Positions 2,074-13,494 of a DNA stretch of 13,494 nt are shown here, piece after piece (positions within the stretch are counted from its first letter, which is position 1; the number at the start of each line of letters is the position of its first letter). The stretch comes from Burkholderiales bacterium (GTDB lineage Bacteria > Pseudomonadota > Gammaproteobacteria > Burkholderiales > Usitatibacteraceae). Location: NCBI GenBank assembly GCA_017880705.1, contig JADGRS010000036.1:1-13494 (forward strand), given 5' to 3'. The notes below the pieces were generated by a model. That model did not search any database. It was not told where the DNA came from and saw only the letters and a program-made list of their open reading frames with translations. A program made the position numbers and the translations under genes.

Positions 2074-3132
2074 ATGAAGCGTAGGGTGGCGGTCGACGAT
2101 ATCGACATGGCGCACGTTCCTCACATCCGCTTCGTCCTCGATCCGCGCGCCGTCGCGTGGCCCGACCTCGAAGACCTCGACGAGAGCGACATCGAGCGCG
2201 AGCCGCGGCGCTTCGTCGGCGGGCGCAACTCGTGGATCGCGCAATCGTTCCTGCGCCTGCGCGGGTCGATCGAGGCCCGCGGATGGCGCGCGAGCGCGGG
2301 ACCGGATTTCATGCCCGGCACCATCAGCATCGTCCACCGCGACGACATGAACCGCTTCGCGAGCGACGGTCACGCGAGCTACCTCCTGGTGGTGCGCGCC
2401 GACCGCGCGCCCGTGGCCGCGTGCGACCTCGCCATCGCGCAGAACGCGTTGAGCCTTTCCAGAAACGAGCGCTTCGTTCCGCTCTGGCCGCAGCCGGGGC
2501 TGGTGCCGCGCGACGCCTCCCGTGGAGCGCGCGTCGAGCGCATCGCCTATCACGGGCGAACGGGCACGGCGCCGGCATGGTTTCGCGATCGCGAATTCCA
2601 TCGCAGCCTCGCCCGGCGTGGAATCGAGTTCGCCGTGCGCGATGCGGGTTGGGAGCTCTACCGCGACGTCGACGTCGCGCTCGCGGTGCGCGAGGAGCTG
2701 CCGGGCGTGCTCGCGACCAAGCCCGCGACCAAGATCTACAACGGCTGGCTGTCGCGGGTCGCGGTGCTCGCATCTCCCGAGCCCGCCTATCGCGAGCTGC
2801 GCCGCGCGCCCCTCGATTTCCTCGAGGTGAACGACGCGCGCGATCTTCTCCAGGCGGTGGACCTGCTGCGCGCGAATCCCCGGCTCTATGAAGCGATGGT
2901 CGCCAACGGCTGGAGGAGAAGCCTCGAATTCAATGTCGAGGCGACGCGCGCGCGGTGGCTCGCGCTGCTCGACTCGGAAGTGGTGCCCGCTTTCCTGCGC
3001 TCGGGTTCCAGGCTCGCGTCGCGCCATTCGTGGTTCATCGGCGCGATGCTGCGCCAGAAGATCGCGAGTCGCGTGCACCGCTCGCGTCTCGCCTACCAGC
3101 ACATCGCCGGCCTTCGCGCCGCGGTGACCTGA
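2074..3132 (+). CDS. Glycosyltransferase-like protein of unknown function
   Basis: A 352-residue soluble protein with no signal peptide or membrane helix. The region 153-245 resembles the C-terminal half of a GT-B glycosyltransferase: a strand-turn start (VERIAYHGR), then DVDVALAVR, then KPATKIYNGWLSRVAVLASPEPAYRELR. In related proteins this last segment is the nucleotide-sugar-binding part ('KPxTKxxNAW...GPExAxRE'). The helical end (255-300) also fits. The N-terminal half shows no motif I recognise. It stands alone, with no polysaccharide or LPS genes nearby, so the acceptor is unknown. The start at 2074 is uncertain: an in-frame ATG at 2107 gives MAHVPHIRFVLDPR, a more natural N-terminus, and neither start has a good Shine-Dalgarno site. 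The fold assignment rests on motif resemblance only. Confidence 0.6.
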   Translation: MKRRVAVDDIDMAHVPHIRFVLDPRAVAWPDLEDLDESDIEREPRRFVGGRNSWIAQSFLRLRGSIEARGWRASAGPDFMPGTISIVHRDDMNRFASDGHASYLLVVRADRAPVAACDLAIAQNALSLSRNERFVPLWPQPGLVPRDASRGARVERIAYHGRTGTAPAWFRDREFHRSLARRGIEFAVRDAGWELYRDVDVALAVREELPGVLATKPATKIYNGWLSRVAVLASPEPAYRELRRAPLDFLEVNDARDLLQAVDLLRANPRLYEAMVANGWRRSLEFNVEATRARWLALLDSEVVPAFLRSGSRLASRHSWFIGAMLRQKIASRVHRSRLAYQHIAGLRAAVT

Positions 3133-3137
3133 GGGCT

Positions 3138-5009
<1,872 letters not shown>

Positions 5010-7656: not shown

Positions 7657-7683
7657 GGCACTGCCATCAACCACGAGGTGAAT

Positions 7684-8304
7684 ATGAAAACGACCACTTG
7701 GAGACTCGCGGCGGTTGTGTTTGCTGTCGTCGCGCTGCCTGTTGCCGCGCAGATAAGTCCTACCGATCCGCAGCCGACTTGCACGATGTGCCCAGGCACC
7801 TATATCCCGCTAGCAGAGCTTGATGGCTACACAAAGAAGGCGTTGGCTGAAAGACTCGTGGATCAACAGGTTCGCGACGTAAACATCGGCAAGGCACACA
7901 TCGGAATAGGAATGGTGCATCGCGGGAAGTTGGAAAGGCCTGCGCCGAATTCAGTCGCCGAACACGATCAGGTCAGCGAGGTTTATCACATCATCTCCGG
8001 CTCAGGGACCCTGGTGCTGGGACCGGACATCGCAAACAGACAACGGCGGCCGGCAACGATGCGTACCGTCGTCGAATTCAACGGGCCCGGCAACAATGGA
8101 TCAGAGGTTCGGGATGGCGTTGCGCACGAAATCAAGGCGGGTGATGTCGTTGTCATCCCGGCGGGGACCGGTCACTGGTTTACCAGGATTGAAGACCACA
8201 TCGACTACCTCATGATTCGGATCGACCCTGACAAGGTGACTCCGCTGAAGAGTGAAACCCAGTCCAGGGAATATCTGTCCAAGCCGGCGCCACGAGGCGA
8301 GTAA
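7684..8304 (+). CDS. Exported cupin-domain protein
   Basis: A 206-residue protein with a clear signal peptide (MKTTTWRLAAVVFAVVALPVAAQ, cut likely after A22), so it acts in the periplasm or beyond. After a CTMC cysteine pair (C33, C36) and a linker comes one cupin barrel. Motif 1-like EHDQVSEVYHIISGSG supplies H94, E99 and H102; motif 2 GDVVVIPAGTGHWF (153-166) supplies H164. Together these could bind a metal, as in cupin dioxygenases, isomerases or sensors; the reaction cannot be told. The start ATG at 7684 follows GAGGTG closely; a GTG two codons upstream is part of that site. The gene looks less GC-rich than the flanking core genes, which fits transfer. Its stop is 10 bases from the outer core of an attC-like site. 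Confidence 0.82.
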   Translation: MKTTTWRLAAVVFAVVALPVAAQISPTDPQPTCTMCPGTYIPLAELDGYTKKALAERLVDQQVRDVNIGKAHIGIGMVHRGKLERPAPNSVAEHDQVSEVYHIISGSGTLVLGPDIANRQRRPATMRTVVEFNGPGNNGSEVRDGVAHEIKAGDVVVIPAGTGHWFTRIEDHIDYLMIRIDPDKVTPLKSETQSREYLSKPAPRGE

Positions 8305-8314
8305 CGTGGCCCAT

Positions 8315-8371
8315 GCCTGACGACAGAGTTGAGCGGCCTGCAGCGACGTTCGCTCGAACGCGTTGTCACAC
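8315..8371 (-). repeat. attC-like site with variant GTC/GAC cores
   Basis: Read on the minus strand, this 57-base element has R''-like GTGTGAC, L'' GTTCGAGCG, a short central part, L' CGCTCAAC and R' GTCAGGC. L'' pairs with L' except for one extra C, the kind of unpaired base that marks attC hairpins. The usual GTT/AAC core triplets are replaced by GTC/GAC on both arms, so pairing is kept. The stop codon of the 84-residue membrane-protein gene falls inside R'', as in the site at 11068-11163. It is degenerate relative to consensus, and activity is not shown. Confidence 0.6.
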
Positions 8372-8620
8372 GTCATGTGTATCGGAGTCGCGTTCATGAC
8401 TTTCAGCATCTCCGGCGCTCCCCCCTTCGAGTGATTTGGAAGGTCTTCCCTCAACCGTGTGCGTCATCCACGCGCTAACAGCGGCGATGAGGCCAAGTAT
8501 GGCAAGCACGATTGGAACCGCATAGCCGGAACCGTCCTTCGGGTGGTGCACGAATGCGCCGGCAGCGGTTCCAAGCAAGAAGACGCTTGCAACCGCGAGC
8601 AGGTATTTTGCAGTGCCCAT
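8366..8620 (-). CDS. Small two-helix membrane protein, 84 residues
   Basis: An unrecognised protein: MGTAKYLLAVASVFLLGTAAGAF forms a first hydrophobic helix (about 5-23), HHPKDGSG a short loop, AVPIVLAILGLIAAVSAWM a second helix (34-52), and the tail is polar and acidic (about 57-84, rich in S, E, D, H). The ATG at 8620 has no convincing ribosome-binding site. The TGA lies inside the first core of the attC-like site downstream, which suggests a gene cassette. Homologues were not searched. Confidence 0.6.
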   Translation of the reverse strand: MGTAKYLLAVASVFLLGTAAGAFVHHPKDGSGYAVPIVLAILGLIAAVSAWMTHTVEGRPSKSLEGGSAGDAESHERDSDTHDV

Positions 8621-8623
8621 GAC

Positions 8624-8722
8624 GTTTGACGCTCGAGGTAAGTGGCTGCGGCCACGCTGTGTTGAAGATACCGTGCCAATCCGCCGCGGTCCACTTGCCT
8701 GAAAGGCAGGCCAGCGTCACGT
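8624..8722 (-). repeat. Weak structured site, possibly a third degenerate attC
   Basis: Between two small membrane-protein genes there are nested inverted repeats: TGACGCT (8627-8633) with AGCGTCA (8713-8719), and AAGTGG (8640-8645) with CCACTT (8691-8696). On the minus strand the outer ends read ACGTGAC and GTCAAAC; the latter fits a GTC-RRR-Y version of the R' core. The upstream gene's stop abuts the first core. The GTTGAGCG-type L arms of the other sites are absent, so this remains a suggestion. Confidence 0.3.
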
Positions 8723-8967
8723 CATCGCTGTCTCTTGCGTCGATCCCGTTCCAGCGCCCACATTGCCGTAGCCAGCGCAATCCAAGCGCCAAAGAATGCG
8801 ACCGCCCCATAGAGCCATAACGTCGGACTATCGAGGCTGTACCCGCTCCGCCCCGAAAAGTAGTCGCCCACGATCGTTCCGACCACGATTCCGAGCGACA
8901 CACCTGCCGCAATGAGAGCGGACTTCGCTGCTATGGGCAATCGCTTCCAGGCGTTGTCAGGTGTCAT
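8722..8967 (-). CDS. Small two-helix membrane protein, 81 residues
   Basis: An unrecognised protein. It has a short N-terminus (MTPDNAWKRLP), a helix about 13-34 (AKSALIAAGVSLGIVVGTIVGD), a polar loop about 35-48, a helix about 50-70 (LWLYGAVAFFGAWIALATAMW), and a strongly basic end (ERDRRKRQR) likely on the cytoplasmic side. The ATG at 8967 overlaps the stop of the ModA-like gene by one base (TGATG), so translation may be coupled; a GTG at 8970 is the alternative. The first codons lie within a half attC-like motif (8942-8962), so the ORF may have formed when that site decayed. Confidence 0.55.
   Translation of the reverse strand: MTPDNAWKRLPIAAKSALIAAGVSLGIVVGTIVGDYFSGRSGYSLDSPTLWLYGAVAFFGAWIALATAMWALERDRRKRQR
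8942..8962 (-). repeat. Half attC-like site (R''-L'' arm only)
   Basis: Immediately after the ModA-like stop codon, the minus strand reads ACCTGAC then AACGC then CTGGAAGCG. This aligns with the first arm of the strong site at 11163-11142 (ACCTAAC AACAC GTTGGAGCGG), differing mainly by the A-to-G core change and one gap. I find no matching R'-L' arm within the next 150 bases, so it would be a remnant or a chance match. Confidence 0.35.
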
Positions 8968-9737
8968 CACTTCGCGAGCGGCTCCATCCCGCCGCCCTTG
9001 ATTGCCGCCGACGCGTGCTCGGAGGCGAAGAATGCGATCAGGCGCTTCGCCGACTCGACCTCCTTCGATCCTTCCACCACTGCCGCCGCGAACACCTGAT
9101 TCAGCTGGATTTCCTCCGCGATCACGCCGGCGAGCTCGACACCCGGTGCGTGCACGATTTCGCTGACCGGCAGGAGCCCGACGTCCGCTTCACCGGACGC
9201 GACCATGGCCGCAGCACCTGTGCCGCGCGGCGCGACCTTGACGTTGACCTTGTCCGCGATGCCGAGCCGCGGAAGGACCTCCTTCGTGAGGAAGATGCCG
9301 CTCGTGCTGGCCGGGACCGCGACAGCTTTCGCGTTCAATACGACTTGCTTGAAAGCTTCGACGGTGGTGACGTCGGGTTTCGCGGCCCCGGAGCGCACTG
9401 CCACGCCGATGGGCGTTCGCGCCAGGTCCACATCGCTTCCGGGGACGATTCTGTGCGCGGCGATCTGCTCGGCGAGGCCTTCCCTGGAGAGAATCACCAC
9501 GTCGACGGGCACGCCGCGTGCGAGCTGCGCCCCGATGGTCTGCGGCCCCGTCCCCTGGGACGAGCCCGAGCTGGTGGTGACCTTGATGCCCGTCGTGCGC
9601 TCGAATTCCGGCAACAGCTTTTCGTATGGGCCGGAGAATCCGCCCGATATCATCACCTTCAATTGTGCCGACGCGGCGAGCGGGCCCATCAGCAGCGCGA
9701 CGACGACGATTGCATTCGCTGGCCTCCACATGCGCAT
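8967..9737 (-). CDS. ModA-like periplasmic substrate-binding protein
   Basis: A 256-residue class II binding protein related to the molybdate-binding ModA group. It has a signal peptide (MRMWRPANAIVVVALLMGPLAASA, cut near A24), then LKVMISGGFSGPYEKLLPEFERTTGIKVTTSSGSS (26-60), GVPVDVVILSREGLAEQI (75-92), TPIGVAVRSG (108-117) and GEADVGLLPVSEI further on. ModA proteins coordinate oxyanions with serines, but the ligand is not certain here. No permease (ModB) or ATPase (ModC) gene is in the window, so it is an orphan or works with a distant transporter. The ATG at 9737 has GGAG 8 bases upstream; an ATG two codons later is possible. It follows the GFA-family gene by 25 bases, likely in one transcript. 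Confidence 0.8.
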   Translation of the reverse strand: MRMWRPANAIVVVALLMGPLAASAQLKVMISGGFSGPYEKLLPEFERTTGIKVTTSSGSSQGTGPQTIGAQLARGVPVDVVILSREGLAEQIAAHRIVPGSDVDLARTPIGVAVRSGAAKPDVTTVEAFKQVVLNAKAVAVPASTSGIFLTKEVLPRLGIADKVNVKVAPRGTGAAAMVASGEADVGLLPVSEIVHAPGVELAGVIAEEIQLNQVFAAAVVEGSKEVESAKRLIAFFASEHASAAIKGGGMEPLAK

Positions 9738-9762
9738 GTCATTTCTCCGTATTCAATCTTCA

Positions 9763-10176
9763 TCACCCGGCTGGCGGTGGTTGCTTCTCCACGTGCGGCA
9801 ACTCCGCGTCGATGCTGGCCCAGCCGGGTGCGGACGACGTCCAGATCGTCATCGCAGGATTGGCGAGACTCGGATCGTCGAAAGTGCCGACGCGGACAAA
9901 GATCAGGTGGGGACGCGCCTCTGCCTCGCTGAAGAGTGGCGTCCCGCACGACGGGCAGAATCGCCGGTGCATTTCGTTGCCACTGTCCGCGACGCTTGAA
10001 TAGTCGCTGGTCTGGCCCGTCAGCCTGAACGCTTCCGTACGGAAGCAGGCGTTCACCGTTCCGCTGCCGGCACCGAGGTATTGGCAGTCCCTGCACCAGC
10101 ACACGCGCGTGACAATCGGGGGCGCTGAGCTCTCCCAGCGAATGGCCCCACAGAGGCATCGACCCGATATCGTCAT
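9763..10176 (-). CDS. GFA/CENP-V-family zinc protein
   Basis: A 137-residue cytosolic protein with the GFA-domain cysteine pattern: CLC (C7, C9), CWCRDC (C26, C28, C31) and CPSC (C74, C77), which bind structural and putative catalytic zinc. The C-terminal IWTSSAPGWASIDAELPHVEKQP is typical of the small proteins annotated as 'glutathione-dependent formaldehyde-activating', though few have been shown to act on S-hydroxymethylglutathione. No formaldehyde dehydrogenase is nearby, so I keep the family name only. The ATG at 10176 gives MTISGRCLCG, a normal N-terminus for the family. It is placed 31 bases after the methyltransferase and 25 before the ModA-like gene, same strand, so the three may be cotranscribed. 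Confidence 0.85.
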   Translation of the reverse strand: MTISGRCLCGAIRWESSAPPIVTRVCWCRDCQYLGAGSGTVNACFRTEAFRLTGQTSDYSSVADSGNEMHRRFCPSCGTPLFSEAEARPHLIFVRVGTFDDPSLANPAMTIWTSSAPGWASIDAELPHVEKQPPPAG

Positions 10177-10207
10177 GTGCGTATCCTAGAGCATCGTCAG
10201 GACCGGC

Positions 10208-11029
10208 CTAGCGGCGCGATGGTTTGACGATATTCCCGCGCATCTCGAGCGGCCTGGGATCAACCGGCGCTTCGCGCCCCGCGAGCACCCGCTCGCCCAG
10301 CCCGGCTTCGGCTCCCGCGGCGCGCTTCTCGATCACGCACATCGAATCGAAGAACGCGATCGCGAAAATGTCCGCGGCGAGGCTCGCTTCCATGGCCGCG
10401 CCCGGCGGCAGGAAAGGCGCCACCTGCGCCTCGAACGAGGCCTGGTCCTTCCAGTACGCGTGGTGCAGGCCATCGGCGAGCAGCTTGAGGAAACCCATCG
10501 CCCCCGCGGGCTCGGAGTATCCACCACCCCAGTCGCGGAAATAGGCGCAGTGCAGGTCTTCGACGATGTAGAGGCCGCCGGGCGCCACGTGCTGGAAGTA
10601 ATTGCAGAAGGAGTTGACGATGTCGCGCGAATGGTGCGAGCCATCGTCGATGAAGACGTCGATCTGCGGAGCCCGCGCGGTGAGCTCACTGTAAACCGGC
10701 GGCGAGTTGATGGGGCCGATCAAGAGCGCGATGCGCGGATCGTCGAAGCGCAGCGCGCCGCACGCTGGGTTGGCGTCGCAGCCGATGACCACGCGCGCAT
10801 CCGCAAAGTACTTCGCCCAGAGCTCCAGCGACCCGCCGTTCTGCACGCCCACCTCGACGAAAGCGATCGGCCGTTCACGATACGGCGCGAGCACGCGCTC
10901 GTAGACATCGAGGTAGAGGCTCCATTTGTCGGCGAGCTTGCCTTCATGCTTTTCGTATAGGGCGCGCAGGCTGTTAGCGGAAGGCATACGCGGAGCGTCC
11001 ACGGGGGCCAGGGTTCTTGCCCCGGACAT
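10208..11029 (-). CDS. Class I SAM-dependent methyltransferase, small-molecule/sugar type
   Basis: A 273-residue protein with a Rossmann-type methyltransferase core: IAFVEVGVQNGGSLELWAKYF (55-75; motif I EVGVQNGGS), VVIGCDANPAC (80-90, ribose-binding acidic D86), and IDVFIDDGSHHSRDIVNSF (123-141) followed by APGGLYIVEDLH (149-160). The FIDDGSHH...GGLYIVEDLH pair is typical of macrocin/mycinamicin O-methyltransferase-like and cephalosporin-hydroxylase-like enzymes that use a metal and act on sugars or natural products. The substrate is unknown. The frame extends to 11128, but that part overlaps the attC site, so it is excluded. ATG 11029 starts 39 bases after the attC core; ATG 10987 (MPSANSLRALYEKHEG) is equally plausible, and neither has a Shine-Dalgarno site. 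Confidence 0.75.
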   Translation of the reverse strand: MSGARTLAPVDAPRMPSANSLRALYEKHEGKLADKWSLYLDVYERVLAPYRERPIAFVEVGVQNGGSLELWAKYFADARVVIGCDANPACGALRFDDPRIALLIGPINSPPVYSELTARAPQIDVFIDDGSHHSRDIVNSFCNYFQHVAPGGLYIVEDLHCAYFRDWGGGYSEPAGAMGFLKLLADGLHHAYWKDQASFEAQVAPFLPPGAAMEASLAADIFAIAFFDSMCVIEKRAAGAEAGLGERVLAGREAPVDPRPLEMRGNIVKPSRR

Positions 11030-11067
11030 TTCGAAGGTATCGCGGATGCATCCGGTATGTTGATGCT

Positions 11068-11163
11068 GTCTAACGACCGAGTTGAGCGGCCGGCCACGAT
11101 GACCGTTCCGCGGCCAGACGCGGCCCACGGTGCCTCACGGTCCGCTCCAACGTGTTGTTAGGT
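11068..11163 (-). repeat. Integron attC site, both cores matching consensus
   Basis: Read on the minus strand, the 96-base element has R'' ACCTAAC (fits RYYYAAC), L'' TTGGAGCGG (11150-11142), a variable centre, L' CCGCTCAA (11089-11082) and R' GTTAGAC (fits GTTRRRY). L'' pairs with L' with a single extra G, the extrahelical base by which integron integrases recognise the folded strand. The TAA of the 99-residue membrane-protein gene lies inside R'' (11158-11160), the usual place for a cassette gene to end. Orientation relative to that gene is canonical. No integrase gene is in the window. A covariance-model search is needed to confirm it. Confidence 0.8.
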
Positions 11164-11457
11164 CTCATCGCTCCCACTATGCTGCGGTGGCCGCTTGAAG
11201 CGCGCCCAAACCCTGGTGAGTAGATACGACACAAGCGTTCCCGCGAGCCAGCCCATGATGATGTAGCCCACAACTACGGGGCCGCGACTGTCTGCTTCAA
11301 CAAAGGAACGACCGGTCTCTGCGGCAAGTCGCGACAGTTGCCCGCCTGCGAAGAACCATCCGGCCACACCTCCAAGAACCCCGCCAGCGATAACGGCGAG
11401 CGATTGCCCGAAGGTCAAACGCTCCTTCTTCACGCTGCCGTTTCGAGGTTCACTCAT
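11158..11457 (-). CDS. Small two-helix membrane protein in an integron-like cassette
   Basis: A 99-residue protein with a basic N-terminus (MSEPRNGSVKKERLTFG), a glycine-rich helix about 17-38 (GQSLAVIAGGVLGGVAGWFFAG), a polar loop 39-58, a second helix about 60-82 (PVVVGYIIMGWLAGTLVSYLLTR), and a polar tail. The glycine spacing may favour helix packing. I recognise no family. The TAA stop lies inside the attC core downstream, and a core-like GTCAGGT lies 9 bases before the ATG, so gene plus attC has the form of a single mobile cassette. The gene is less GC-rich than parC next door. No Shine-Dalgarno site is evident; cassette genes often depend on outside promoters. Confidence 0.65.
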   Translation of the reverse strand: MSEPRNGSVKKERLTFGQSLAVIAGGVLGGVAGWFFAGGQLSRLAAETGRSFVEADSRGPVVVGYIIMGWLAGTLVSYLLTRVWARFKRPPQHSGSDET

Positions 11458-11459
11458 TT

Positions 11460-11473
11460 CGATGAGACCTGAC
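11460..11473 (-). repeat. Core-like cassette boundary, inverted copy of the attC end
   Basis: On the minus strand this reads GTCAGGTCTCATCG. The plus strand at 11157-11170 (attC core plus outward sequence) reads GTTAGGTCTCATCG, 13 of 14 identical. The two copies face inward and enclose the 99-residue gene exactly. This could be the recombination junction where the cassette was inserted; the only difference is the core T/C, the same change seen in the 8315-8371 site. Confidence 0.45.
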
Positions 11474-11489
11474 TAGTATTAGGGCGACA

Positions 11490-11531
11490 GGTGTTATTGC
11501 GCAGTGATGAATAAAACTGCGAAATAACACC
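11490..11531. terminator. Long hairpin downstream of parC
   Basis: GGTGTTATTGCGCAGT (11490-11505) and ACTGCGAAATAACACC (11516-11531) form a 16-bp stem with one mismatch and a 10-base AT-rich loop, 25 bases past the parC stop. Its position suggests an end to parC transcription. No T-tract follows on the minus strand, so a pause, mRNA-protecting or recombination-related structure is also possible. The stem is unusually AT-rich for this genome. Confidence 0.45.
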
Positions 11532-11556
11532 GGCCGCTTGATTCGCGCAAATCCTA

Positions 11557-13494
11557 TCATCCCTCGAATCCTTCCACCCGCTTGAACGATCCCTGCAGAA
11601 CCCGCCCAGTGCGAGCGCGGGTTCCGCGATAGTGCTCGAGGTCGGAGGGCTTCACGTTGAGTGTCGTGCGCTTGTCGCCGCGGCCGAACGCGGCGATTTT
11701 CAGTCCCGCGTCGGCCACCTGGATGCCGAGCATCGGCTCGCCTTCGTGCAGCCGCATCGCCATCACGCCGCGGCCGCCGCTCGGAAGCTCGTTCACTTCC
11801 TCGAGCGGAAACACGAGCAGGCGGCCGTCGCGCGATAGGGCCGCGACTTCCTTCGCGTCGGCGCCAAGGATCGCGGGGGCGAGGAGCGATTCTCCTTCTC
11901 CCACCGCGACGAAGCTCTTCCCCGCACGCTGACGGGTCACGAATGCTTCGACCTTTGCGCGCAACGCATTCCCGCCGCTCGTTCCCATCAGGACCGGCGT
12001 TTCGGGCACGGCCGAGATCATTCCGACGATCGCGGTGCCGGCGGTTTCCGCAAGGGACGAAGCGGGCACGCCGTCGCCCTTGCCGCCGGGAAGCTCCGCG
12101 GCGCGCACGTTGAAGACGCGACCGTTCGCGCCGAAGAGCACGATGGGATGCACCGTGCGCGTCTCGACGATCGCGAGCGGGCCGTCGCCTTCCTTCCAGG
12201 CGAGGCCGGCGCGATCGATGCCGTGCCCGGAGCGCGAGCGCAGGAAGCCGTTGCGCGAAAGGACCAGCGTGACGGGCTCGTCGACCGTCGCCTGCACGTC
12301 GGACACGGTGATGCGCTCCGCCTCCTCGATGAAGGTGCGGCGCGCGTCGCCGAAGCGCCGCGCGTCCTCGCGCACCTCGGCCGCCGCGAGCTTGCGGCGC
12401 TCGGCGGGCGAGCCGAGGAGCTTCTTCAGCGAAGCCGATTCCTTCTTGAGCTCCGCGAGCTCGCGCTCGATCTTGATGCCCTCCAGCTTCGCGAGCTGGC
12501 GCAGGCGTATCTCGAGGATGTCCTCGGCCTGTCGTTCGGAGAGGCTGAATGCCTTGATCAGCTCGGACTTGGGCTCGTCCGCGTTGCGGATGACCTTGAT
12601 CACCTTGTCGATCGAGAGGAAGGCGATCATGCGGCCTTCCAGGATGTGCATGCGATCGGCGACTTCCTCGAAGCGATGGCGCAGGCGGCGCCCGATCACC
12701 ACGAGGCGGAACGCTGCCCACTCGGCGATGACCTCCGAGAGCCCCATCTGGCGCGGGCGCCCGTCGGTGCCGATCGCCACGAGGTTCATGGAGACGTTCG
12801 CCTCCATCGACGTGTGCGCGAGGAGGAACGCCATCAGCTCCTCGGAATCGACCTTGCTGGTGCGCGGCTCGAACACCACGCGCACCGGATGCTCGCCGTC
12901 CGAATCGTCGCGTTGGCTCTCGAGCAGGGCGAGGGCCGCCGCCTTCAGGTTCTGCTGGTCGGGCGTGAGCGATTTCTTGCCCGTCTTCGGCTTGGGATTG
13001 GTGAGCTCATCGATCTCCAGCAGGACTCTCGCGGCGGACGCATTCGGCGGCAGCTCGGTGACGGCGATGCGGTACTGGCCGCGCGCGAGGTTCTCCACTT
13101 TCCAGCGCGCGCGCACGCGGACGCTGCCGCGGCCGGTCTCGTAGGCGCGCTTGATCTCGTCGCGCGACGAGATGATCTGCCCGCCGCCCGGGAAATCCGG
13201 TCCCTTGATGGGGCGGATCACCGGCTTCGCATCGGGCTCGTTCTCGAGCGTCTGCGCGCAGGCTTCCGCGACTTCCTTCAAGTTGTGCGGCGGGATCTCG
13301 GTTGCCATGCCGACCGCGATGCCGGAGGCGCCGTTCAGCAACATCACCGGAAGGCGCGCGGGCAGCAGCTTCGGCTCCTGGAATTCGCCGTTGTAGTTGT
13401 CGATGAAGTCGACGGTCCCGCGATCGAGCTCCGACAGGAGCACGTGCTCCGCGAAAGCGGTGAGGCGCACCTCGGTATAACGGTAGGCCGCGGG
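11557..13494 (-). CDS. parC: Topoisomerase IV subunit A, N-terminus beyond window
   Basis: Catalytic A subunit of topoisomerase IV, which decatenates daughter chromosomes with ParE. The visible 645 residues lack roughly the first 115. The fragment opens with PAAYRYTE, placing the DNA-cleaving tyrosine (codon 13479-13477) after the conserved arginine, only six codons inside the edge. Then follow EPKLLPARLPVMLLNGASGIAVGMATEIPPHNLKE, the tower and coiled-coil region with FRLVVIGRRLRHRFEEVADRMHILEGRMIAFLSIDKVIKVIR and LSERQAEDILEIRLRQLAKLEGIKIERELAEL, and a C-terminal domain with degenerate beta-pinwheel repeats (SRNGFLRSRSGHG, NGRVFNVRAAELP, RDGRLLVFPLEEV). The length and the lack of a GyrA box indicate ParC rather than GyrA. 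The quinolone-resistance region is outside the window. The frame has no internal start that needs to be used. Confidence 0.95.
   Translation of the reverse strand, partial: PAAYRYTEVRLTAFAEHVLLSELDRGTVDFIDNYNGEFQEPKLLPARLPVMLLNGASGIAVGMATEIPPHNLKEVAEACAQTLENEPDAKPVIRPIKGPDFPGGGQIISSRDEIKRAYETGRGSVRVRARWKVENLARGQYRIAVTELPPNASAARVLLEIDELTNPKPKTGKKSLTPDQQNLKAAALALLESQRDDSDGEHPVRVVFEPRTSKVDSEELMAFLLAHTSMEANVSMNLVAIGTDGRPRQMGLSEVIAEWAAFRLVVIGRRLRHRFEEVADRMHILEGRMIAFLSIDKVIKVIRNADEPKSELIKAFSLSERQAEDILEIRLRQLAKLEGIKIERELAELKKESASLKKLLGSPAERRKLAAAEVREDARRFGDARRTFIEEAERITVSDVQATVDEPVTLVLSRNGFLRSRSGHGIDRAGLAWKEGDGPLAIVETRTVHPIVLFGANGRVFNVRAAELPGGKGDGVPASSLAETAGTAIVGMISAVPETPVLMGTSGGNALRAKVEAFVTRQRAGKSFVAVGEGESLLAPAILGADAKEVAALSRDGRLLVFPLEEVNELPSGGRGVMAMRLHEGEPMLGIQVADAGLKIAAFGRGDKRTTLNVKPSDLEHYRGTRARTGRVLQGSFKRVEGFEG

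Follow-up and report, generated by a model that had tools for sequence, protein, structure and literature searches.

An integrase-less cassette array headed by an attI-like site behind parC in a Usitatibacteraceae draft genome: a probable satellite of a one-integrase system

We analysed a window of 13,494 nucleotides (nt), which is the entire contig C423 (JADGRS010000036.1) of the draft genome G000, a Burkholderiales bacterium of the Usitatibacteraceae (GCA_017880705.1; 3.28 Mb in 509 contigs, 87% complete and probably metagenome-assembled). Six open reading frames (ORFs) on the minus strand sit between parC and a convergent cupin gene. The parts follow one another in the order parC, attI-like site, cassette with a gene of 99 amino acids (aa) and attC-A, middle block with half an attC, relic with an 82-aa gene, cassette with an 84-aa gene and attC-B, and cupin gene, with all att elements in one orientation. 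Judging by sequence, positions 8315-11543 are a small integron array without an integrase gene (intI) of its own, headed by an attI-like site, that is, an attI-headed cluster of attC sites lacking an integron integrase (CALIN). The six genes, their common orientation with the att elements and the CALIN-like character of the locus had already been put forward in a first-pass annotation of the same letters, and all of this stands: there are at least two significant attCs and no intI nearby. Comparisons were made with a panel of 61 genomes (G000 and 60 relatives), with a same-genus set of five and with the closed same-genus genomes G002, G004 and G005.

The attC sites were scored with a covariance model, R1, which was built from 52 aligned attCs of relatives, none from G000, and run on the window with filters off (IntegronFinder's own attC model was not the one used). 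Two sites 2.7 kilobases (kb) apart stand out (Table 1), supplying the two significant covariance hits that the first-pass annotation had called for. The 96 nt of attC-A is a common attC length in the genus, and the next match after the two sites is the plus-strand mirror of attC-A at E=0.0021. Over all of G000, R1 finds five sites at E<=1, the mirror aside, of which two are on contig C403, one is on C43 and two are in the window. An attC core pattern, CCGCTCAACTCNNNCGTTAGRC with at most two mismatches, is present in 29 of the 61 genomes and occurs 90, 52 and 69 times in the closed genomes G002, G004 and G005, where the control matches number 0. Genes and sites also abut as had been described earlier. 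The stop codon TAA of the 99-aa gene lies within the R'' box ACCTAAC (11163-11157), the TGA of the 84-aa gene lies within the R'' box GTGTGAC (8371-8365), and the TGA of the 82-aa gene (8724-8722) directly adjoins a GTGAC core.

These scores bear on the simplest alternative, which is that the locus is ordinary chromosome with chance attC-like hairpins. The DNA is GC-rich and full of hairpins, two of the four attC-like elements are weak, and attC-A and attC-B fold no better than shuffles (single-strand z = -0.60 and +1.49), so that folding energy does not single them out. However, the R1 E values refute a chance-hairpin reading for these two sites, the cassette ends described below are complementary, and the gene order, whose conservation in relatives would have pointed to ordinary chromosome, was not seen in the parC regions of ten relatives. 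We regard this alternative as close to negligible.

In a free cassette circle, the start of the cassette (after the crossover G) pairs with the cassette's own R''. Among 185 cassettes of relatives this pairing reaches to about position 12-13, with 72-96% at positions 5-12 against a shuffled-end background of 28-86% whose high values come from the conserved position 9. That self-pairing extends past the 7-nt boxes to 9-11 nt was already known, according to the available text of PMC2727003. In the window, the start at 11472 with the end of attC-A, and the start at 8629 with the end of attC-B, form reciprocal best pairs out of some 3,300 positions. Of 2000 mononucleotide-shuffled versions of the region, 6 did as well for cassette 1 and 48 for the 84-aa cassette. 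Given this reciprocal pairing, the stretches 11074-11472 and 8321-8629 can very probably be taken as genuine cassettes, and they are the only two here shown to have both their own attC and a complementary start. The GTC core of the 84-aa cassette is not simply decay, because its R'' holds the matching change TGAC.

The core-like boundary that the first-pass annotation had marked, GTCAGGT at 11473-11467, is real, and the site that lies there is attI-like. That annotation had seen neither an integrase nor an attI; the former remains true of the window, while the latter has to be revised. The first cassette starts of relatives were located by the cassette-end complementarity rule, and with a slash for the crossover, the attI of G010 ends in ...CCTGTCGCCCCAATACTAG/TTAG where the window, before cassette 1, reads ...CCTGTCGCCCTAATACTAG/TCAG. 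A 23-nt attI core pattern (at most three mismatches) is found in 4 of 120 genomes, its reversed control matching in 3; it adjoins intI in G010 and in G018, heads a second G010 array (contig C54), lies in the window and, with three mismatches, is present once in G099. Profile R3, made from three attI sites of G010 and G018 with the window left out, matches the window at 11469-11543 (22.1 bits, E=1.5e-6; next best 0.32), and across G000 this is the sole match at E<=1 (E=3.8e-4). Over 36 genomes, the five best R3 matches all adjoin intI or attCs. They are the two of G010 and the one of G018, which form the training set, the G000 site, and one in G020 beside its intI (E=0.005); weaker matches, from E=0.01 on, look like noise. 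The attI match falls exactly at the cassette start given by end complementarity, and it is this sequence profile that places an attI-like site at the head of the array. A palindrome at 11484-11537 (z -5.9), overlapping the site, was considered as an attC and rejected, its GTT/AAC order being reversed.

The same flank speaks to the idea of an off-target deposit, in which IntI would have integrated cassettes at a non-attI site (attG) behind parC. Integration of this kind is described in the accessible portions of PMC12444791 and PMC12901181, and cassette 1 starts 84 nt past a housekeeping gene. The left flank, however, matches an attI profile that was made without the window and does so at the genome-wide level given above, which makes such a deposit improbable. 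The first-pass picture of an arbitrary deposit beside a housekeeping gene gives way for the same reason: the boundary looks like an integron platform without intI.

Table 1. Features of the array and its neighbours in the window, in the order in which the minus strand is read.
Feature	Position	Strand	Evidence and remarks
parC, topoisomerase IV subunit A, 3' part; left neighbour of the array	11557..13494	-	Pfam DNA_topoisoIV 2.3e-74
attI-like site; crossover G at 11473	11469..11543	-	profile R3
Cassette 1, very probably genuine and intact: 99-aa small hydrophobic protein (ORF 11158-11457) and attC-A	11074..11472	-	ends complementary 12/13
attC-A, full length, 96 nt	11068-11163	-	R1 98.9 bits, E=1.6e-20
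S-adenosylmethionine-dependent methyltransferase (Methyltransf_24-like), middle block; start codon uncertain (in-frame GTG at 11128)	10208..11029	-	Pfam 1e-5
GFA-family protein, middle block	9763..10176	-	Pfam GFA 3.6e-33
ModA-like substrate-binding protein, middle block	8967..9737	-	SBP_bac_11 1.7e-32; modA model below its cut-off
Putative relic attC half-site, R''L'' side only, 3' of the modA-like gene and running into the 82-aa ORF	8939..8970	-	matrix score 2.3
82-aa small hydrophobic protein; start overlaps the modA-like stop	8722..8970	-	5' end looks rebuilt
Degenerate attC candidate, long stem, L'R' half at 8646-8617	8617..8727	-	half-site score 4.9; R1 weak
Cassette, very probably genuine and intact: 84-aa small hydrophobic protein (ORF 8366-8620) and attC-B	8321..8629	-	ends complementary 11/13
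attC-B, short; core GTC in place of GTT, own R'' TGAC	8315-8371	-	R1 44.5 bits, E=1.7e-8
Cupin-domain gene, convergent right neighbour	7678..8304	+	Pfam Cupin_2 3.1e-6

Arrays of the same build occur in relatives whose genomes are closed. G002 and G005 each have one intI match at E<=1e-40. Among the R1 matches listed, the attCs of G002 lie at 264.9-297.9 kb (intI at 262.8 kb) and at 2438.6-2448.9 kb, and those of G005 at 732-749 kb (intI at 750.2 kb), at 115.8-131.4 kb and, as a single site, at 448.9 kb. The remote groups start directly behind a copy of the main attI, where the cassette-end rule gives 13/13, 13/13 and 12/13. Satellite and main attI share 153 nt at 78% identity in G002, and 147 nt at 86% and 141 nt at 89% in G005, with only scattered matches of 11-18 nt upstream of the satellite copies. 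In G010, a second attI, of the window type, heads an array on a contig in which no intI was found; the two G010 sites share 126 nt at 74%, plus one 20-nt match and shorter or weaker ones. Searches of the satellite loci with five IntI proteins at E<=0.1 gave no intI remnant, the one match (E 0.051) being in locus L100, which is part of the main array stretch of G002. A profile of the attI type of G002, G004 and G005 found three copies in G005, two in G002 and one in G004, and elsewhere in the 61 genomes nothing better than E=0.013; it was run with strict filters and its six hits are its training set, so it shows only that further close copies of this type are absent and that G004 has no satellite of that kind.

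Cassettes cut at their crossover points were then compared between arrays. Cassettes 2, 9, 11 and 12 of the 26 in the G002 satellite equal main cassettes 17, 13, 50 and 49/54 at 99.5-100% full-length identity, and cassette 3 of the 33 in the larger G005 satellite equals main cassette 6 over 538 nt. The shared pairs break at the crossover points in both genomes: exact identity ends 3-27 nt past the left cut and 4-11 nt past the right cut, and flank similarity is 11-31%. Some additional pairs reach 91-97% identity. Because the cassette order differs between arrays, these are better explained by moves of single cassettes, as by IntI, than by block duplication. We take this as good indirect evidence that the satellite arrays of G002 and G005 take part in cassette traffic, in either or both directions.

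The attI modules of G005 and G002 (L101, L145, L146, L099 and L144) open with a short ORF that begins M-Y/H/R-F-P-x-R-F-N. It is 15-27 aa long, closed in four of the five copies and open in the G002 satellite, and its ATG overlaps a TGA in GGTGATG; no ORF start of this kind was found in the G004 module. It may encode a leader peptide for the first cassette. At about 131.9 kb of G005:C1 (L145), a 534-aa frame that looks helicase- or nuclease-like by eye precedes satellite 1 and ends at the module's first TGA. This may be an insertion at a gene end, or the stop may merely be supplied by the module, since this is also where the ORFs in front of the main attIs stop in G005 and G002.

The IntI model TIGR02249 scores over its cut-off in 28 of the 61 genomes, including 5/5 of the same genus. 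The first-pass annotation had suggested looking for an intI elsewhere in the genome, and none over this cut-off was found in G000, a draft that is 87% complete. The best G000 match, on contig C129 (E=1.2e-22, in two pieces), was rejected as an intI, being far below the cut-off and the model also matching 14/14 control genomes; it is taken as a generic tyrosine recombinase. Within the window, five IntI proteins gave no match at E<=0.1 and no intI remnant. Arrays of alike attCs complicate assembly, as stated in the available text of PMC9024848, and because G000 is also incomplete, the organism may have an intI all the same. The locus differs from a complete integron, where intI adjoins attI, in that 83 nt separate the parC stop from the attI crossover.

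This distance enters into a serious rival account, in which intI, attI and array all once stood here, intI was deleted, attI was thereby joined to the region behind parC, and slow decay followed. The distance falls short of the stretch over which attI copies elsewhere are homologous (126-153 nt), the window array is short and decayed, and closed G004 has a single intI-attI platform. Yet the window holds no remnant of intI, and in the two closed same-genus genomes where both genes could be placed, intI is far from parC (about 1.5 and 1.6 Mb). Four other arrays, three of them in closed genomes and the fourth in G010, are also headed by an attI copy that has no intI. On balance we think a decapitated integron unlikely, if well worth keeping in view. 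Because the relatives G002 and G005 show attI-headed arrays lacking intI, we infer that the window array is a satellite and did not arise from an integron by loss of the integrase gene, and we consider it moderately probable that it is a partly decayed satellite array of a system with one integrase and several attI sites.

In such a system, IntI made elsewhere in the cell would insert cassettes, as folded attC bottom strands, at the G/TT crossover of a second attI behind parC, and later deletions and point changes would erode the array. IntI would thus act, or have acted, in trans on the attI-like site of the window. An intI elsewhere in the genome is found in closed G002 and G005, with none over the cut-off in G000. 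Extended to this betaproteobacterial family, the proposal is that its integrons can be distributed systems, in which a discrete attI module, about 140 nt long and lacking intI, is copied to remote chromosomal sites, each copy founds an array of its own and one IntI in trans moves cassettes between arrays, the window being a small and eroded member; we hold this to lie only just on the probable side of even.

Erosion is suggested by the other two of the four attC-like elements that had been reported, which prove to be half-sites. Position matrices for the R''L'' and L'R' halves were trained on 210 attCs of relatives, and on the minus strand of the window both half-sites rank third, behind attC-A and attC-B (the R''L'' matrix also gives 3.7 for the plus-strand mirror of attC-A). 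As a null, 35 non-array loci that overlap in part were scanned after known attCs had been masked, some 425,000 strand positions in all; there the R''L'' score was reached once, with 3.1 in L094, the parC contig of G003, and the L'R' score once, with 19.7 at C403:11905 of G000, which is itself an attC-like half. We read both window half-sites as relics. A class of cassettes with truncated attCs, in which little is left beyond R'', is described in the available text of PMC12901181. Only the L'R' half of the degenerate candidate stands out, its R1 match at 8624-8711(-) reaching 10.1 bits and E=0.71; all but one of 200 shuffles fold less well than the stretch 8616-8730 (z -3.9), in a test that does not discriminate here. 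A full attC at 8899-8975 was rejected on its R1 covariance score.

The middle block had been proposed as an unusually long cassette. This cannot be shown, because the start after attC-A lacks a cognate end, and at two of the four sites only half-sites are left as relics. As one intact cassette, running from that start to the half-site at the modA end, the block was rejected: the ends give 6 of 11 informative matches (P 0.39) and pair no better than with non-cognate ends. At the following gene, homologues of the 82-aa protein (six besides itself, all jgi records) begin M/V-A-N-x-W-K; the window has P-D-N-A-W-K in that place. This is consistent with a deletion that fused the modA-like gene to the 82-aa cassette.

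Several observations weigh against the window being a satellite array of this kind. Regarding the cassettes, nothing in the region complements the start that follows attC-A (best 9/13), the half-site at the modA end pairs best (11/13) with the start at 11472 of cassette 1, which our model does not explain, and the crossover cores of three of the four window sites read GTC and not GTT (8315-8321, 8624-8630 and 11467-11473). Regarding the attI-like site, it is of the G010/G018 type and not of the G002/G004/G005 type, its R3 score is modest (22 bits), and BLAST against the G010 attI aligns 27 nt only. In the draft of 509 contigs an intI may be unassembled, and there is no assembled main array of G000 with which the window cassettes could be compared. 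The clean empty site that had been suggested as a check did not appear, the window sequence or a cassette-free version of it following parC in 0/10 loci of relatives. Finally, closed G004 has a single attI match, which puts satellites in two of the three closed same-genus genomes.

The cargo genes have scattered relatives. The 99-aa protein has 13 homologues, one from a Usitatibacter sp. metagenome-assembled genome (MAG) and the others from jgi/ena/lgn records, and of 17 pattern matches to its family in the named genome collection 0 were confirmed. The methyltransferase has a 96% homologue, P0021, with a longest contig of 20 kb, and among 150 genomes of the order, 29 encode a homologue of the ModA-like protein. 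In the loci compared, the window cassette genes gave one GFA match only at E<=1e-3 (L052, 29% identity, 1e-7). The window ParC protein is 78% identical to the same-genus proteins of G002 and G005. Cupin matches among the 61 genomes are confined to G000 and weak ones in two genomes of other families, and no homologue was found in the other 27 family genomes searched. Seven ORFs of the left half of the window gave one weak kinase match only against the relatives' parC regions and four G000 contigs. An Rfam scan of the window gave no match at the gathering score, and a promoter and terminator scan of 11000-11700 found none.

Elsewhere in G000, contig C43 (L089) carries a lone cassette at 2961-3366, near the contig end, with an intact attC and ends complementary at 12/13. 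It is preceded by CCCTGTCTTG/TTAG, which no attI profile matches, and a non-attI insertion or another attI type are both possible. On C403 (L088), attCs at 9945-10040 and 12580-12667, about 2.5 kb apart, flank a thiamine pyrophosphate (TPP)-enzyme gene and a kinase-like ORF (Pfam below cut-off); the cassette ends do not match, and the pair may mark another small array of this genome. The 24-nt attC core also occurs on a contig (L139, CALMZR010000279.1) assigned to an uncultured Chloroflexi MAG, by misbinning or transfer.

Such attI heads would easily be missed if attI sequences other than those of the clinical classes are left unmodelled. A literature search, limited and without most subscription journals, found no description of an attI-headed CALIN and no publication on Usitatibacter and an integron. 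The novel element would seem to be the attI copy that heads the array. IntegronFinder 2 sets the CALIN threshold at two attCs, and CALINs have been proposed as degraded integrons; their number, 2,961, is close to that of complete integrons, 2,760 (PMC9024848, available text). The window shares with them at least two attCs in one orientation and no intI nearby; it is thus a CALIN, yet unlike a plain one because of its attI-like head, of which the CALIN definition in that text makes no mention. Mobilisation of CALINs in trans has already been stated in the accessible portions of PMC12444791 and PMC9668308. The remote CALINs of Xanthomonas are likewise integrase-less arrays at recurrent loci away from intI, and the available part of PMC12444791 mentions no attI head for them. 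The Delta-attI cassettes of mobile integrons also carry attI sequence outside the usual intI-attI position; as described in the accessible text of PMC12901181, a shortened attI there replaces the attC at the cassette end, whereas in the window an attI-like site heads the array. With the chromosomal integrons of G002, G004 and G005, the window shares the attC type and the complementarity of cassette ends; it differs in having no intI, about four cassettes and another attI type, where these have intI adjoining one attI and about 40-74 cassettes in the stretches examined. If many CALINs start with an attI copy and trade cassettes, one integrase would serve several platforms per cell, and the single-platform view of cassette order and expression would need revision. 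Some CALINs would then be live satellites with an attI of their own, rather than wrecks.

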